Positions 17,793 through 25,884 of a stretch of DNA of 51,628 nucleotides are shown here, piece after piece. This DNA is from Archaeoglobaceae archaeon. Lineage in GTDB: Archaea > Halobacteriota > Archaeoglobi > Archaeoglobales > Archaeoglobaceae. Numbering within the stretch: position 1 is the stretch's first letter; every line of letters begins with the position of its first letter. The position numbers and the translations under genes were made by a program. The notes under the pieces are model-generated. The model saw only the letters and a list, made by a program, of their open reading frames with translations, was not told the origin of the DNA and did not search any database. Location of the stretch: assembly GCA_015520485.1 (NCBI GenBank), contig WAPX01000052.1:1-51628 (forward strand), read 5' to 3'.

Positions 17793-18168
17793 TCTATCAT
17801 TCTTTTCACAAGTGCAACCTTATATTACGGGATATAAAAAACTTAACAAATTTTTCTTTAATACAACTTTTCAGTATAACTCTTAGTTCTTCCTTAAACC
17901 TTCAACAACATTTCTTTCATCGAAGGTTTCATGACTGTATTTAATTCCCTTTGCCATAGATACTAACTCATTTTTTCTCAAAGATCAAAAAAGCGTGTAA
18001 TAACGCGCCAAAAGTCCCTGTTCTTCCAGAATTTGATGCAGTCTACCGGTTGCCTTGATGCTGTTGCATAAACCTATTTGTTTTTTATCCTATTCTTGAC
18101 AGCGTTGCAGGTAAACGAAAAGCATATTTAATCTAAAAATCTAAAGTTGTCTGGCGGGAGGGCTAAGC
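17793..18168. other. Intergenic region between guide RNA and the smc operon
   Basis: 376 bases holding no intact gene. It begins with a T-rich stretch that could end the guide RNA transcript. It continues with decayed coding sequence on the minus strand (listed separately) and ends with the promoter of the coiled-coil gene (TATTTAATCTAAAAATC at about 18124-18141 and GGGAGGG as SD). Confidence 0.45.
17883..18115 (-). pseudogene. Decayed reading-frame fragments, possible mobile-element remnant
   Basis: The minus strand holds protein-like pieces in more than one frame. From 18115 down, FTCNAVKNRIKNK is followed by a stop and then QPVDCIKFWKNRDFWRVI. At 17957-17883 a 24-codon piece starts MAKGIKYSHETFDERNVV and ends at a stop. 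The first piece resembles the start of the fragment at 42868-43002 (FCFNSL, stop, SVKNRDKKW), and the DNA shares CCTATTCTTGACA-like sequence with it. I do not recognise the parent family; a transposase is plausible but unproven. Confidence 0.35.
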
Positions 18169-18684
18169 GTGAGAGCTGACGATTCTGGATTTGAGACTGC
18201 AGGCAGAGGTAGTGTTATCGAGATGTTAGAGGAAAAACTTGCCGAAAAGGAAAAAGAAATCGAGGAGCTGAAGAGAATGAACGAAATCGAAATATCCGAA
18301 ATGAGGGAGAAGGTAAAGGCTGAGCTGAAAGCTGAATTGAAGGCTGAGCTGTACTCGGAGCTGATCAGTGATCTCAGGAGAGAGATGTCCGTGCTGAAGG
18401 ATGATGCTGTTCGAGAGCTTGCAGTTCAGTTAAAAAACGAAATACTGAGTTTGAAAAGAGAATCTGAAAACGAAAAAATAATCGTGGACAGGATTGGAGC
18501 CATTGAGGCAAAACTGCTTGAGCTCGCAAAAACGGTGGAAAACCTGACGAAAGAAATCCTGTACATGAAATCGGAGAGGCCGGAGAGGCTGCAGAAACCG
18601 CAGAGAAACAGAGTAAAGCAACAGCTCAAGAGCAGCAAAACGGTAAAACTCGATACGGATGACGATATTATAGTCTGTGACTGA
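18169..18684 (+). CDS. Coiled-coil protein, first gene of the smc operon
   Basis: A 171-residue protein made almost entirely of predicted coiled coil (MLEEKLAEKEKEIEELKRMN, repeated KAELKAELKAEL, later VDRIGAIEAKLLELAKTVENL). It has a basic linker (RPERLQKPQRNRVKQQ) and an acidic end (LDTDDDIIVCD). The GTG start at 18169 follows a clear GGGAGGG SD. The stop is 14 bases before smc, so co-transcription is very likely. No family is recognised. Position suggests an accessory or regulatory partner of Smc-ScpAB, by inference only. The coiled coil could also make it a structural or chromatin-tethering protein. Confidence 0.75.
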   Translation: MRADDSGFETAGRGSVIEMLEEKLAEKEKEIEELKRMNEIEISEMREKVKAELKAELKAELYSELISDLRREMSVLKDDAVRELAVQLKNEILSLKRESENEKIIVDRIGAIEAKLLELAKTVENLTKEILYMKSERPERLQKPQRNRVKQQLKSSKTVKLDTDDDIIVCD

Positions 18685-18698
18685 TTTACTGCCGAAAC

Positions 18699-21600
18699 AT
18701 GTACATCAAGAAGATAACCCTCAAAAACTTCAAGTCTTTTGGAAAAAAAGTGGAGATACCTTTTTTCAGGGGATTTACCGCTATCAGCGGGCCAAACGGA
18801 AGTGGAAAGTCGAACATAATCGACTCCATCGTGTTCTGTCTTGGACTTACATCGTCAACGAAAGCTCTGAGGGCTGAAAAGCTGACCGATCTGCTTTACA
18901 GCGGGAAAAACACGAGCGAAGCTGAGGTGTCGATAACCTTTGACAACAGCGACTCTGCCCTACCCTTCGACGGGGACATTACCGTTACGAGGAAGATAAA
19001 AATAACGGAAAAAGGGTACTACAGCTATTACTACCTGAACGGAAAGCCGTGCAACCTCTCGGAAATACAGGACATGTTCGCCAGGGTGGGTATTCACGGA
19101 GAGGCTTACAACGTTATAATGCAGGGAGACGTGACGAAAATAACCGAGATGACGCCGGTTCAGAGAAGAAAAATAATAGACGACATAGCGGGAATTTCTG
19201 AGTTCGAGGAGAAAAAGGAAAAAGCTTTGGAGGAGCTCGACAGGGTCAGGGAGAACATAGAAAAAATAGAAGCCATTTTAAGCGAAATCTCCAGCAATCT
19301 CGCACAGCTCGAGAAGGACAGGGAAGAGGCTATAAGGTACCGGTCTCTTCTCGAAGAGAAGGAATTCTACTCCAAGGTCGTTGAAACTCACCACTACAGA
19401 CTTTTGCTCGGTAAAGCTGAGAAGCTTGAGAGAGAAATTCAAAAGCTCGAACTCGATAAGGACAGGCTAATTCACAGAATGGCAGAACTCGGCAGGGAGC
19501 TCGAAGCGCTGAACGAAAAGATAGGTGAAATATCCTCAAAAATAACGGAGATGACGGGCGAATCGTATGCGGAGATAAACCAGAGAATTCTTGAAGTGAC
19601 CTCGGAGATGGAGAGTATCAGGAAGTCTGAGGAGCTCTACCAGAGCGAAATTGAAAAGCTGAAGGATAAGCTGACGGAGGTAAATCTGGCTGTTTCAAAA
19701 CTTGAGGAAGAGCTGAACGAGCACAAAAACGATTGCGACAGAATTGCCGTGGAAAAGGAGAGTCTTCAGGCTGTTGTTGACGAGCTGGAAGTGAAGGTGA
19801 GTCTGCTGAAGGATCAGATGCAGGAAGTCGATTCCAGACACAGAGCTTTGAGGGACGAGCTGCTCAGAGAGAGGGAAGATCTTGAGGAGCTTAAGAGTAA
19901 GAGAAGCGATTTGCTGAGAGAAAAGGACAGGCTGATCGAGTCCGTGAGACTTTCTGACGTAAATCTGGACACACTTAAGAAAAAAGCCGAAAAATCGAGG
20001 GAAAGAATTGAAGAGCTCAACTCCAGAGTTGATAACCTGCTCAAAACCATAAACACTGCTGAAATGGAAGCGAGCAAACTCGTAAAGAAAAGAAACGACA
20101 CGGACAGCAAACTCTTCTCTCTGAAGGACGAACTCGCAAAAATCGAGGAAAAAATAAAGTTACTCGAAGTCGAGCTTGCCAAGCTCAGGGCTGAGGCAAA
20201 TGCCATAGAATCCGGTTTTTCGAAAGGCGTTGACCTCGTTCTCGAAGCGAGGGAGAGAAGGGCATTACCGGGCATATTCGGGACGGTTGCCCAGCTGTGC
20301 AGGGTTGAGGAGAGGTTTGCAGTGGCACTGGAAGTTGCTGCGGGAAACGCTTTGCAGTACATAGTCGTTGAAAATGAGGACGATGCCGTGAGAGCCATAA
20401 ACTACCTGAAACAGATAAAGGGAGGAAGAGCCACCTTCTTGCCTCTGAACAGAATAAAGAGGAACTTCGGAAAACTGGAACTCGACGCCTCAATTCTGGG
20501 CTACCCCGGAGTTGTTGATTACGCCGTAAACCTCGTAAAGTGCGAAAAAAGGTTCATTCCCGTGTTTAACTACGTTTTCAGGGACACGCTGGTCGTTGAC
20601 AGGATAGAGACTGCAAGAACGCTGATGGACAGGTTCAGGGGAAGAATGGTAACGCTGGATGGGGATCTGGTGGAGAGGAGCGGCGCAATGAGTGGAGGTT
20701 ACCACGAGAGGAGGAAAGGTTTCCTGCTGTCCAAAGACCTCGTAGAGAGGGAGAAGAGAATTCTCGAGGAAATAACGGTTTTCAAGAGCAAGAAGTCTGA
20801 AATAATGGCGAAAATAGGAAAGCTCGAGGAGGAGAGAAGAGATTACCAGCAGCAGATCGACGAAAAAAGTGCCGAAGTCAGGAGGATAAGGGAAGAGATC
20901 GATTCAGCCAAAAGGCTGATTGCTGACGAGACAGAAATGCTCGGCGAACTCGAAAAGCAGATTGCAGAAATAGAGAAAGAGAAGAGGGAAACATCTCAAA
21001 AAATACTGGAGCTGGACGGAGAAATAGACAAACTGTCAGAAGAAATAGCGGAAAAAGAGAGAAAAATAAAAGGGATAGAAAAGAAGCTCGGAGACGGCGA
21101 GATACCGGAAATTACCAGAAAGTACGAGGAGCTGAAGGAGGAGCTGTCAGCCGCTTACAGCAGGCTAATGAACGCGGAGAAAAGGCTTGAAAACGCTGAG
21201 TTCAAGAAAAAACAGGTGGAAAAGTGGATAGAAGAGAAAAACAGAGAGAGAGAAAGGCTGAAAAAGGAAATTTCTGAGTTTGAAGAAAAAATACGGGATG
21301 GCAGAAAAAGAGTTAAAGAGCTTGAAGAGGAACTGAGGAACCTGAAGGAGGAGGAGGACAGAATAGGCAAGAACGTCAGAGAGCTCAGGAAAGAGAGAGA
21401 TGAACTGCTCGAAAAAAGCAGAAAGCTGGAAAAAGATAGAGACGCGTGCAAATACGCAGTAGCTGCGGTGGAGGAGAGAATTAAGGCGAGGAAGGATTCT
21501 TTGATGAACGTGAGAACCGAGATTGAAAAAGTGGATAAAAACAGGCTGATTGAAGGAGAAATACCGCCGATGGACGAAGCAATCAGGAAAATAGAGGAAA

Positions 21601-22262
21601 TAGATGTGGAACTGAAGAAATTCGGTGACGTCAACATGAAAGCAATTCAGGATTACGAAAAGGTCAGGAGCAGAAGAGACAGCCTTCTCGAAAAGAAGCT
21701 CAGCCTCGAAAAGGAGAGAAGCGAAATACTGGATAGAATAGATAAATACGAAAAGATGAAAAGAGATGCCTTTTTTGAGACTTTCAATGCTGTAAAGGAG
21801 AACTTCTCCAGAGTCATAAAAACGCTGACGGATGGAGAGGGCAACCTGTACCTCGACGGAGAGGATCCGTTCAACAGCGGTTTAAATATAAAGGTGAAGT
21901 ACTACGGCAAACCCGTCAGAAGAATAGAAGCTCTCAGCGGAGGGGAAAAAAGTCTCATAGCGTTAGCTTTAATATTTGCCATTCAGATGTACAAACCAGC
22001 TCCGTTCTACGCCTTTGACGAGATAGACATGTTTCTTGACGGTGCTAACGTTGGCAGGGTTGCAAAGCTGATAAAGGAGAGGTCGAAAGACGCACAGTTT
22101 ATCGTTGTTTCTCTCAGAAAGCCGACTCTCGAAATGGCAGACGCCATAGTTGGCGTAACGATGAGCAGAGACAACTGCTCGAAGGTAACGGGCATAAAGC
22201 TGAAAGTTAAAGAAAGTAAAGAAGCGATAAAGGAAGAAGCAGAGGTAGAGGCGCAGGGATAA
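18699..22262 (+). CDS. smc: Chromosome segregation ATPase Smc
   Basis: A full-length Smc of 1187 residues. The Walker A motif GPNGSGKSNI is at residues 31-40. Two long coiled coils flank the hinge (about residues 510-680; GIFGTVAQLCRVEERFAVAL and the glycine-rich GAMSGGYHERRKG at its end). The C-terminal head has the signature LSGGEKSL (1079-1086) and Walker B FYAFDEID (1103-1110). The dimer with ScpAB forms the condensin that compacts and individualises chromosomes. The ATG at 18699 begins the conserved first strand (MYIKKITLKNFKSFG). It is followed by scpA 42 bases downstream. Confidence 0.97.
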   Translation: MYIKKITLKNFKSFGKKVEIPFFRGFTAISGPNGSGKSNIIDSIVFCLGLTSSTKALRAEKLTDLLYSGKNTSEAEVSITFDNSDSALPFDGDITVTRKIKITEKGYYSYYYLNGKPCNLSEIQDMFARVGIHGEAYNVIMQGDVTKITEMTPVQRRKIIDDIAGISEFEEKKEKALEELDRVRENIEKIEAILSEISSNLAQLEKDREEAIRYRSLLEEKEFYSKVVETHHYRLLLGKAEKLEREIQKLELDKDRLIHRMAELGRELEALNEKIGEISSKITEMTGESYAEINQRILEVTSEMESIRKSEELYQSEIEKLKDKLTEVNLAVSKLEEELNEHKNDCDRIAVEKESLQAVVDELEVKVSLLKDQMQEVDSRHRALRDELLREREDLEELKSKRSDLLREKDRLIESVRLSDVNLDTLKKKAEKSRERIEELNSRVDNLLKTINTAEMEASKLVKKRNDTDSKLFSLKDELAKIEEKIKLLEVELAKLRAEANAIESGFSKGVDLVLEARERRALPGIFGTVAQLCRVEERFAVALEVAAGNALQYIVVENEDDAVRAINYLKQIKGGRATFLPLNRIKRNFGKLELDASILGYPGVVDYAVNLVKCEKRFIPVFNYVFRDTLVVDRIETARTLMDRFRGRMVTLDGDLVERSGAMSGGYHERRKGFLLSKDLVEREKRILEEITVFKSKKSEIMAKIGKLEEERRDYQQQIDEKSAEVRRIREEIDSAKRLIADETEMLGELEKQIAEIEKEKRETSQKILELDGEIDKLSEEIAEKERKIKGIEKKLGDGEIPEITRKYEELKEELSAAYSRLMNAEKRLENAEFKKKQVEKWIEEKNRERERLKKEISEFEEKIRDGRKRVKELEEELRNLKEEEDRIGKNVRELRKERDELLEKSRKLEKDRDACKYAVAAVEERIKARKDSLMNVRTEIEKVDKNRLIEGEIPPMDEAIRKIEEIDVELKKFGDVNMKAIQDYEKVRSRRDSLLEKKLSLEKERSEILDRIDKYEKMKRDAFFETFNAVKENFSRVIKTLTDGEGNLYLDGEDPFNSGLNIKVKYYGKPVRRIEALSGGEKSLIALALIFAIQMYKPAPFYAFDEIDMFLDGANVGRVAKLIKERSKDAQFIVVSLRKPTLEMADAIVGVTMSRDNCSKVTGIKLKVKESKEAIKEEAEVEAQG

Positions 22263-22304
22263 GAGTAAGGCAGGAGTACGTAAAATTAAGCAGGATGGTG
22301 CAGT

Positions 22305-23150
22305 ATGGAGCCAGCAGGGCAGGAAGAGCTCGGGAAGTTAGAGGATCCTGTAAAACTCCTCGTGGACATGGCAAAACAGGGAAAGATAGACCCGTGGAAC
22401 ATAGACGTCGTCGAGGTAGCGGATAAGTTTCTGCTGGAGCTCGAAAGAGCGAGGAAACTTGACCTGAGAATATCGGGGAGAGTTTTGCTGTACGCAGCCA
22501 TTCTCACGAGAATGAAGGCGGAGATTCTGGCTGAAGAGGCTGTGCTCTGCGTTTCCGAAAACGAAGAACCCCCGGGTTTTGAAGATGCCATAGAAGGTGG
22601 AAGAGAGTGCGGGGAAGATTACGAATTCACCGGCACGCCTGATTACGATTACTACGGAGAAATAGATTTTGGTGATTTTGAAGGTTTTGGTCTTGAAGGT
22701 TTTGGTCTGGGCACAGCTGAAAAAAGCGAAGAAAACCTGTTTGAGGACGAAATAATAGCCCACCTGATGAGACCGCACCGAAAGGTCAGAAGGTTTACGA
22801 CCCTGAAAGACCTGCTGAGAGAGCTCGAAAGAGCGGAGAAGACGAAAAAGAAGAAGAGAGATACGGGCAGCATAGGGAACACCGTGCTCAAAACGCCACA
22901 CGAAGAAGACATAGAGGATACGATTTCAGCTGTGGAAGAGGAGCTCAAAAAATTGTTCGAGAGGAGAGACTTCGTTACCTTTTCCGAGCTGGTCGAGGGT
23001 AGAGGGTTGAAGAGGAAGCTTTCGCTGTTCGTTTCCATACTTTACCTGACTTACAGGAAAAAAATTGAAATAGAGCAGGAAAAAATTTACGAGGATGATA
23101 TACTTATATTTCCGGTGAGCAGAAATGCAGAGGGAAATGCAGAACGGTGA
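22305..23150 (+). CDS. scpA: Segregation and condensation protein A (kleisin)
   Basis: A 281-residue kleisin bridging the two Smc heads. The N-terminal domain is seen in EDPVKLLVDMAKQGKIDPWN and RVLLYAAILTRMKAEIL. The C-terminal winged helix is seen in FSELVEGRGLKRKLSLFVSI and LTYRKKIEIEQEKIYEDDIL. The middle is an acidic, aromatic linker containing a 15-bp tandem duplication (EGFGLEGFGL). GGATGGTG upstream serves as SD. The gene overlaps scpB by 26 bases, implying coupled translation. Confidence 0.93.
   Translation: MEPAGQEELGKLEDPVKLLVDMAKQGKIDPWNIDVVEVADKFLLELERARKLDLRISGRVLLYAAILTRMKAEILAEEAVLCVSENEEPPGFEDAIEGGRECGEDYEFTGTPDYDYYGEIDFGDFEGFGLEGFGLGTAEKSEENLFEDEIIAHLMRPHRKVRRFTTLKDLLRELERAEKTKKKKRDTGSIGNTVLKTPHEEDIEDTISAVEEELKKLFERRDFVTFSELVEGRGLKRKLSLFVSILYLTYRKKIEIEQEKIYEDDILIFPVSRNAEGNAER
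22680..22709 (+). repeat. 15-bp in-frame tandem duplication inside scpA
   Basis: GAAGGTTTTGGTCTT (22680-22694) is followed by GAAGGTTTTGGTCTG (22695-22709), 14 of 15 bases identical. It encodes a doubled EGFGL in the flexible linker of ScpA. Confidence 0.75.
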
Positions 23151-23742
23151 AAACCGTGAAAACGCTGACGGAGAAACTGTAGAAAACAAAAGTAAAGCTA
23201 ACAGCGAAAGCGACCTGATGAGAATAGTCGAGGCCATTCTATTCGCTTCTCCGGAACCAATAACCCTCACAAAGATAGCGAGAATTGCAGGCGTTAAACT
23301 CAAAGCAGTTAGAGATGCCGTATTTCTCCTTCAGGAGGAGTACAGAACAAGGGCTACTGCACTTGAGATAATGGAGATGGGGGGGAAGTACACAATGAGA
23401 GTGAAACCTGAGTACAGCGTTTACGTGGACAGGTTCAGAGAGCTCGACATGGAAAGAGGCGCTCTGAGAACTCTTGCAGTAATAGCATTCAAACAACCAG
23501 TAAAGCTATCGGAGCTGGCGAAAATCAGGGGAAACAGGTGTTACGAACACGTCAGAAAACTCGAAGAGCTCGGCTTTATAAGGTTAGAGCCGTCCGGAAG
23601 GACGAAGGTCATAACAACGACCAGAAAATTCGCAGAGTACTTCGGACTGAAATCGTCAAATCCCGAATCCGTTAAAAAGTTTCTGGCAAATGCTGCGAAG
23701 AGAGACGCGAGGCTGGAAAAGTATATACGTGAAAAAACATGA
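23125..23742 (+). CDS. scpB: Segregation and condensation protein B
   Basis: A 205-residue protein with two winged-helix domains that dimerises and binds the ScpA linker. After a charged N-terminal tail (about 30 residues) come LMRIVEAILFASPEPITLTK, LQEEYRTRATALEIMEMGGK, LRTLAVIAFKQPVKLSELAK and FIRLEPSGRTKVITTTRKFAEYF, all typical of ScpB. The start at 23125 has GGTGA six bases upstream, inside scpA. The C-terminus ends in a basic KRDARLEKYIREKT. Confidence 0.93.
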   Translation: MQREMQNGENRENADGETVENKSKANSESDLMRIVEAILFASPEPITLTKIARIAGVKLKAVRDAVFLLQEEYRTRATALEIMEMGGKYTMRVKPEYSVYVDRFRELDMERGALRTLAVIAFKQPVKLSELAKIRGNRCYEHVRKLEELGFIRLEPSGRTKVITTTRKFAEYFGLKSSNPESVKKFLANAAKRDARLEKYIREKT

Positions 23743-23751
23743 TAGATTTTG

Positions 23752-24519
23752 ATGCTCGACCTCGTTGCTGAATGCGTTGAATGGATTTGCAGTTACCTTG
23801 CAGGCGAGGAAAGAGCTACAACCAGCGAGGAGGAGGTAGATAGGTTAGCCTTGAGGTTTCTGCTAAGGAAGAGAGCGAAGACGGCAAAAATAACAGACCT
23901 GATAGCAAATTCGAGTAACCTGAGCGAGTTCTCAAAAATGGTCAGAGACGCGCTTTTCAGCGAACCCGTAACAATATCCTGTTTTTTACCGGAAAGGGTG
24001 GAAGAAAAGGGATGCACGCTCTTCTGTCCTCACGGATTTAAGCCAGACGTTCCTGAAAAGGTGAAGGCCATCGAGGAAGTTTTAAAGGCGAGGAGGATTT
24101 CAGATGCTTTGGATGCCGCTAATTCCATATTTTCCAGATTTTTTGGAGTAAAACCGGATAGAGAGGGTATTTTCTTGGTGTTTAAAAGGAATGGCGGCTA
24201 CAGGCTTTTCATATCGAGTATAGATGAACTCGACGAAGACATAACGTTTCACTTCAAACTCGCCAGAGATTTCGAAGAAAACTACGTCGTTGTTGTTCTC
24301 ACCGATAAAACGCCGCTACCGTTTATAAAATTCTTCAGAAAAAATTCCGAAAACGTGAGGAGGGGGAAAATACTGATATGGGTCATGGATGAGGACAGAG
24401 AATACGTTGACCCCTTCATAGGCTACCCACCGGATGAAGAGCTCATAAGCAGGTTCAAAAATCCAAAGCTGGCAACCCAGATAGAATCTCTGTGGAGGTC
24501 CAAAGTGAATAGGTTTTAA
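23752..24519 (+). CDS. Uncharacterised protein, last gene of the smc-scpAB operon
   Basis: A 255-residue protein beginning nine bases after scpB, thus probably co-transcribed. No family is recognised. The N-terminal 70 residues are helical (RLALRFLLRKRAKTAKITDL). A short cysteine group follows (CFLPERVEEKGCTLFCPHG). The C-terminal half looks like an alpha/beta fold with hydrophobic strands (GIFLVFKRNGGYRLFI, NYVVVVLTDKTPLPF, KILIWVMDED). The context suggests a role with condensin or chromosome maintenance, by inference only. A TTG at 23749 is an alternative start. Confidence 0.65.
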   Translation: MLDLVAECVEWICSYLAGEERATTSEEEVDRLALRFLLRKRAKTAKITDLIANSSNLSEFSKMVRDALFSEPVTISCFLPERVEEKGCTLFCPHGFKPDVPEKVKAIEEVLKARRISDALDAANSIFSRFFGVKPDREGIFLVFKRNGGYRLFISSIDELDEDITFHFKLARDFEENYVVVVLTDKTPLPFIKFFRKNSENVRRGKILIWVMDEDREYVDPFIGYPPDEELISRFKNPKLATQIESLWRSKVNRF

Positions 24520-25645: not shown

Positions 25646-25718
25646 GGGCTCGTAGTCTAGCGGTTATGACGTCGCCTTGACGAGGCGAAGGTCCCCGGTT
25701 CGAATCCGGGCGAGCCCA
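25646..25718 (+). tRNA. tRNA-Val (GAC)
   Basis: 73 bases fold as a complete tRNA. The acceptor stem is GGGCTCG/CGAGCCC, the D arm runs from GTC to GAC, and the anticodon stem TCGCC/GGCGA encloses loop TTGACGA, giving anticodon GAC. The variable loop is AGGTC, the T arm is CCCGG-TTCGAAT-CCGGG, and the discriminator is A. CCA is not encoded. There is no intron. A TATA-like CTTATAATTCC lies about 25-30 bases upstream. Confidence 0.96.
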
Positions 25719-25884
25719 CTGGGTATTTCCATTGTTTTTGTTTTTTGACGCTGGTTCACAGGCTGTCAATGACTCGAACCACTGTGCTGTAAATCACAAA
25801 CATGAAAAATATGTATATTTATCAAAACTGACATCGCTACGCGAGAAAAACCAAAAACCTTAATCCCTCAACAGAAGATTTGCC

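Follow-up and report, generated by a model that had tools for sequence, protein, structure and literature searches.

A gene standing directly upstream of smc in an archaeon of the family Archaeoglobaceae may well encode a dedicated accessory of the Smc-ScpA complex, namely a helical rod with a short acidic-hydrophobic tail at its C-terminus, which would presumably bind the complex. This reading is drawn from sequence and gene order and concerns a stretch of 51,628 nucleotides (the window), which is the whole of contig C52 of genome G000 (1.57 Mb; GenBank contig WAPX01000052.1). Such an accessory would have escaped recognition so far because its sequence diverges fast, and the finding ties an uncharacterised Pfam family, DUF7518, to a process. 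An initial annotation of the window had suggested that both genes flanking smc, scpA and scpB work with condensin; for the upstream gene the proposal is real and better than was stated, whereas for the downstream gene it is not supported. The features on which the argument depends are as follows.

18157..18161, + strand: GGAGG Shine-Dalgarno-like site, read from the sequence, with the GTG of the coiled-coil gene 7 bases on
18169..18684, + strand: coiled-coil (rod) gene with C-terminal tail, 171 amino acids, GTG start, distant DUF7518 relative (open reading frame, homology)
18196..18570, + strand: rod helix, residues 10-134, one continuous helix including the segment that matches the DUF7518-type core (AlphaFold2 model, profile matches)
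18571..18660, + strand: linker, residues 135-164, charged, variable and of low confidence (pLDDT, the predicted local distance difference test, below 50 for 139-165; alignment)
18661..18681, + strand: C-terminal tail DDIIVCD, residues 165-171 (motif, tail-plus-stop scans, alignment)
18699..22262, + strand: smc, Smc ATPase, 1187 amino acids (TIGR02169, 1183.5 bits)
22305..23150, + strand: scpA, kleisin, 281 amino acids (PF02616, E 1.1e-17)
23125..23742, + strand: scpB homologue, 205 amino acids, overlapping scpA by 26 bases (PF04079, E 5.2e-40; TIGR00281, 125 bits)

Position of the rod gene before smc

Throughout, the family labels f1 to f29 are the analysis tool's own, f1 being the Archaeoglobaceae as identified via named loci, and the terms haloarchaea-type, methanogen-type and Halobacteriota were assigned from motif type, control genomes and recall. 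In all 33 smc-bearing f1 genomes examined, the rod gene lies directly upstream of smc on the same strand. These genomes comprise 21 among the relatives of the window genome (smc is found in 21 of 24 f1 relatives, each time with the rod gene immediately before it, the gene being cut by a contig end in G002 and G013) and 12 further ones (L148-L159), taken from a larger number of smc-bearing f1 genomes. The survey was extended to a phylum sample of 216 genomes, smc being detected in 182 of them, for which 36 smc regions, a few with a partial cluster, and 60 more upstream regions were fetched. A homologous small open reading frame (ORF) stands just before smc in 19 of the 26 families judged (f1, f2, f4, f5, f6, f10, f11, f12, f13, f16, f19, f21-f24 and f26-f29), where f12 is counted on its tail only and the regions fetched leave out f15 and f25. 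The synteny check put forward with the initial annotation thus comes out in favour of the upstream gene well beyond Archaeoglobales.

The Pfam family PF24362 (DUF7518) matches in 119 of the 216 genomes, 72 of them over the cut-off, and in the 50 of these 72 genomes with listed smc coordinates the match always (50/50) precedes smc on the same strand, at a distance of 10-466 bases. Two control genomes, those of Haloferax volcanii and Methanosarcina acetivorans, are also matched, in one of the two over the cut-off.

A proposed, rapidly diverging family that includes DUF7518

No Pfam or NCBIfam model matches the window rod protein over its curated cut-off, and the protein is absent from the DUF7518 matches at E values up to 1 (curated cut-off 27 bits); among Archaeoglobaceae members 3 of 17 match DUF7518 at E up to 0.05, the best at 0.012. 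Profile-profile comparison scores the Archaeoglobaceae type against the methanomicrobial type at 56.0, the haloarchaeal type against the methanomicrobial type at 54.9 and the Archaeoglobaceae type against the haloarchaeal type at 38.1, as against a maximum of 33.8 in 186 control comparisons with Smc coiled-coil windows. With hidden Markov models (HMMs) trained leaving one family out, the window ORF scores 19.2 bits when its own family is left out, the best of 479 controls being 9.9 bits. Among the f1 upstream ORFs 31 of 32 exceed that best control (the exception is L052, at 8.4 bits vs 9.9), and all tested ORFs of f2, f4, f5, f6, f10, f11, f13, f16, f19, f21-f24 and f26-f29 exceed theirs; the f12 rods score 10.9 and 4.0 bits against a best control of 6.6. 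Chance similarity between coiled coils is rejected by these two sets of comparisons.

We propose from these comparisons that the window protein belongs to a wider family of rods encoded upstream of smc, made up of DUF7518 and its relatives. Part of that family is Pfam DUF7518, whose function is uncharacterised. The window protein resembles DUF7518 members in its place directly upstream of smc, in the core LExxVxELxxTVxGLTEEL and in its acidic linker, with a terminal DDIIVA in the haloarchaea-type families; it differs in having no match to the DUF7518 model, an added N-terminal helix and the tail DDIIVCD.

Anatomy of the rod protein and conservation of its tail

The rod protein is laid out as a long helix followed by a disordered linker and a short tail. 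In the AlphaFold2 model (m6cc4ad44e500, built with 9 sequences; mean pLDDT 82.6) residues 10-134 form a single helix with block means of 96-98 over residues 21-130, and the last residues are slightly more confident than the linker. The acidic-hydrophobic tail motif of the window protein, DDIIVCD, occupies residues 165-171.

Across 32 f1 C-termini the isoleucine at position -4 and the aspartate at -1 are invariant (32/32) while the codons vary; position -5 holds I or L, -3 any of V, I, F and Y, and -2 C or V. The G021 protein, which is additional to these 32, ends in NIIVCD and keeps both invariant residues. In the haloarchaea-type families (f10, f19, f21, f27 and f28) the C-terminus is DDIIVA or a near variant in 15 of 15, and methanogen-type families carry the motif away from the C-terminus, often in repeated copies, as EYIIAE/DYIVAS and DLIYAEDE (also DLIYAE). 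The methanomicrobial-type members (alignment A5) have a further stretch conserved after the rod and ahead of the tail motifs, LIMQPDGTLK, which could be a second docking site. The rod ORFs of f11 (L083:4519-4983, L113:95-502 and L114:83-553) end in another conserved segment with two phenylalanines: SFFKVSRN, RFFHLSKN and RFFHMNRN, respectively.

In the scanned genomes the tail at the very C-terminus is almost confined to the rod gene. A strict regular expression, written after the sequences had been seen and with tailed ORFs preferred where several frames were open, matches 30 of the 32 f1 upstream ORFs at position -7, and none of 637 other called genes carries it within its final 10 residues. 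It misses L149, L158, L105, L106, L107, L118, L122, L147, L082 and L143, which were counted as tailed on reading. At the DNA level, a degenerate tail-plus-stop pattern matched 15 times in 40 genomes, 14 of these matches being the rod gene, and its reversed form never matched; in G000 its sole match is the window rod gene. DDIIVA followed by a stop matched 14 of 20 haloarchaea-type genomes, once each and always at the DUF7518 gene by coordinates (G167 via L131). Each pattern catches one variant, so that 26 of the 40 and 6 of the 20 genomes, respectively, have no match; in the five of the six unmatched haloarchaea-type genomes that were read (all but G074), the tails differ by about one or two residues. 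One match, in contig 21 of G025 (L217), was considered as another tail-bearing protein and was taken as chance after its DNA had been read.

As judged from substitution ratios, the rod gene is under purifying selection. Between the window genome and G004 the ratio of nonsynonymous to synonymous substitution rates (dN/dS) is 0.074 for the rod gene, 0.066 for smc and 0.099 for the gene downstream of scpB, and in four further pairs that of the rod gene is 0.04-0.19, two of these pairs having saturated dS.

Relation to smc and to ScpB

Three f1 genomes have no smc, G005 (76% complete), G014 and G020 (both 99% complete), and none of them has a match to the window rod protein. Likewise, no f7 genome is among the DUF7518 matches and none is listed with smc. 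G014 and G020 also have neither smc nor scpA, and no scpB over the cut-off.

Genomes G030, G034 and G039 carry the rod gene but yield no ScpB match to PF04079, and in f3 and f8, which do have such a match, no rod gene is seen ahead of smc; ScpB is for this reason an unlikely docking partner. PF04079 also matches the Haloferax volcanii control, in which its cut-off status was not shown.

Proposed role

We suggest that the helical rod would dimerise, as its coiled coil leads one to expect, and that the flexible linker would join it to the short hydrophobic-acidic tail. The tail may bind Smc or ScpA, rather than ScpB, in the form of a short extended peptide, and the rod could then tether or recruit the Smc-ScpA complex or regulate its heads. 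In Halobacteriota the rod protein could replace the missing KITE subunit.

KITE subunits (ScpB, MukE and Nse1/Nse3) are tandem winged-helix proteins. The rod protein resembles them in its possible role as a Smc-kleisin accessory encoded in the same cluster, but differs in that it is modelled as a single helix over residues 10-134 with the rest disordered, and has no winged-helix match over the cut-off. A second likeness is to bacterial single-stranded DNA-binding protein (SSB), in which a flexible acidic linker ends in a short acidic-hydrophobic C-terminal peptide. The linker and tail of the rod protein would work in an analogous way; the differences are that it has no match to the oligonucleotide/oligosaccharide-binding (OB) fold, that its body is rod-shaped, and that the motif can be internal and repeated in the methanogen-type families.

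According to Jeon et al. (2020; PMC7055376), archaeal Smc-ScpA is generally binary and works without the third subunit found in bacteria, in six pairs tested no binding of ScpA by archaeal ScpB was seen (PMC7055376), and scpB was not detected in 285 Halobacteria; these authors asked why the kite role is dispensable there (PMC7055376). The same work recorded the genes flanking scpA (PMC7055376). We found no description of the rod gene in the archaeal Smc literature, as covered by titles and the starts of abstracts, with bioRxiv and most subscription papers outside our reach, and no paper of the literature searched names DUF7518 or DUF6834. A conserved gene before smc in most of the families judged, including the haloarchaea-type ones, makes the question of the missing kite testable, and its short C-terminal peptide is one that could be deleted in a tractable haloarchaeon. 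A bolder proposal, which we put forward tentatively and think unlikely to hold in full, is that condensin in Halobacteriota would not be binary and would have a widespread third component that is neither a KITE nor a HAWK, a rod docked through a single-use tail on the Smc-ScpA heads and doing the regulatory or loading job of ScpB.

Alternative explanations for the upstream gene

The most serious alternative, although we regard it as rather improbable, is that the coiled-coil protein shares the smc transcript and acts elsewhere (replication, division and translation are examples), in which case its tail would bind some protein that has nothing to do with condensin. Several observations count against a dedicated condensin accessory, and those on neighbouring genes, on families lacking the rod gene and on Smc and ScpA columns also favour this alternative. 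First, unrelated genes are also kept in this place: among the 31 smc loci that have a gene for 150 or more amino acids upstream, aspS is found in 12 and hisD in 11, and therefore the position of the rod gene alone is weak evidence for joint function. These aspS and hisD clusters come from f1, f3, f4 and f8, with names checked at one locus. Secondly, seven smc-bearing families (f3, f8, f9, f14, f17, f18 and f20, with 1-4 genomes each) lack an ORF of this kind in the 160 bases or so next to smc, the immediate neighbour of smc in f3 being aspS instead of the rod gene, and a search for relocated copies was too insensitive to help, as it missed the known carriers G000, G010, G036 and G063. Weak DUF7518 matches below the cut-off do lie away from smc in several genomes, including G014 and G080, the latter of the gene-less family f20; that in G014 is in an 80-residue frame (E 0.007, 17.1 bits). 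The absence of the rod gene from G014 and G020 could, in addition, reflect one missing contig. Thirdly, when families with and without the rod gene were compared to locate a docking site, no column of Smc or ScpA was found to track its loss (0 found, against null means of 0.45 and 0.18, with 45 of 46 Smc proteins recovered). Finally, the rod of f11 is kept while its tail is absent, and the motif occurs within the last 130 residues of 15 of the 637 other genes, for which reason its internal copies are weaker evidence.

Two observations tell against a protein acting elsewhere. The link to smc outlasts the link to aspS, which is found in 7 of the 17 f1 loci among those 31, whereas every f1 genome examined that bears smc has the rod gene next to it. 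Furthermore, the rod gene is not detected above the cut-off where smc is missing.

Two further candidates concerning Smc and ScpA were set aside: a cluster of columns in the middle region of ScpA proved to be a product of alignment gaps, and the idea that the tail mimics the C-terminal strand of ScpA (YEDDILIFPV here, FGDIYI-like elsewhere) rests on a likeness too short to claim, which is also seen in families without the rod gene.

Much less probable is a leader function of the ORF, in which its translation, or the DNA close to the smc start, would regulate smc expression and the tail would be kept as a ribosome-binding or regulatory site. Translational coupling is plausible because the stop codon of the rod gene sits 1-14 bases before smc in many f1 genomes. 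Against a leader, the tail codons vary synonymously, the distance between the rod gene and smc reaches 130 bases with the tail kept (L127), the low dN/dS extends across the whole protein, and the motif is internal and repeated in other families. An RNA or DNA element in place of a protein tail is rejected on the synonymous codon variation; the sole Rfam match over the gathering score in the window is a tRNA (25646-25718).

The downstream gene

The last member of the cluster is given here.

23752..24519, + strand: DUF6846+DUF6834_C protein, 255 amino acids, AF_2093-like, judged a neighbour (Pfam, 2ph7 homology, linkage survey)

It starts with ATG at 23752, or at an alternative TTG at 23749 that would give 256 amino acids. 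With it the cluster comprises five ORFs on one strand, and the initial annotation described their tight packing correctly, the successive spacings being 14, 42, -26 (an overlap) and 9 bases (6 from the TTG). Its assignments of smc, scpA and scpB are upheld by NCBIfam and Pfam matches, which make the Smc-ScpA(B) set in the window complete (TIGR02169, SMC_hinge at 1.6e-32, PF02616 and PF04079, all over cut-off), and the coiled-coil gene of 171 residues does have its own GTG and the GGAGG site. Tight packing alone is nevertheless a poor guide to condensin partnership.

The same annotation placed the 255-residue protein in no recognised family, which is wrong because it is a DUF6846+DUF6834_C protein (DUF6834_C, E 1.5e-34, 119.5 bits; DUF6846, E 8e-9, 36.5 bits; cut-offs 27). 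It is homologous over its full length to AF_2093 of A. fulgidus, which has a solved structure (PDB 2ph7; E 2.1e-99), and its AlphaFold2 model (pLDDT 92.1) superimposes on 2ph7_B with a Z score of 25.9 and a root-mean-square deviation (rmsd) of 2.0 over 218 aligned residues.

That both flanking genes, including this one, are condensin partners in the lineage is the least credible reading and is largely refuted as a general rule. Some facts do favour it, namely the 9-base spacing, a place beside scpB in 8 of the 18 relatives that have both genes (G000-G004, G008, G010 and G019, in three genera: two g4 genomes, one g6 genome and all five of the g1 genomes that have the gene), and the finding of scpB in the flanking DNA fetched for 10 of 42 named loci. 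Against it, the gene, present in 21 of 40 relatives, lies elsewhere in the other 10 of those 18, and three carriers (G014, G020 and G031) have no smc; synteny thus failed largely for the downstream gene (8/18), while holding for the upstream one. At 13 loci away from smc or in smc-less genomes, the gene was called in 12, and no neighbour recurs in more than 3 of these 12. PF20755 is found in 70 of 212 phylum-sample genomes, and the gene family in 17 of 20 smc-less genomes among those listed, a further 14 smc-less genomes being outside the listing. These 17 carriers are not independent because 15 of them come from one family, f7, and two of the three misses may fall outside the 212 genomes. Conversely, some f1 genomes with smc lack the gene, among them G011, G012, G016, G021 and G022. 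On linkage, distribution and homology the 255-residue protein was therefore set aside as a condensin partner, and we judge the DUF6834 gene to be a neighbour outside the Smc rod-protein system.

PD-(D/E)XK nucleases have a catalytic D...(D/E)xK motif, and the XisH structures presumably have this nuclease fold. The C-terminal (DUF6834_C) half of the 255-residue protein superimposes on 2inb and 2okf (XisH type) with a Z score of 9.0 and an rmsd of 2.4-2.5 over 103-104 residues, and on nucleases such as 2vld and 9ezd with a Z score of 6.2, near chance level; Foldseek gives E 0.08 for the protein against 2inb. The invariant columns of alignment A2 over residues 113-242 hold no acidic residue or lysine and show no obvious catalytic set, while D220 and D228 are nearly invariant.

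Minor observations

Many families have hisD and aspS ahead of the rod gene and smc; this old arrangement is seen at L056, L059, L065, L067, L068, L069, L076, L077, L078, L081 and L087. At L079 and L085 (f5) an ATPase of 888-889 amino acids, weakly similar to Smc, lies upstream of the rod gene and smc. The Smc ORFs at L076 and L077, of the family f3 that has no rod gene, are 1331-1335 amino acids long, about 150 longer than most relatives. Within the window, scpA contains a perfect 15-base tandem repeat (22678-22708), translated as EGFGL repeats in the long, acidic central part of ScpA, and the sole RNA gene found is a tRNA-Val (GAC) at 25646-25719.

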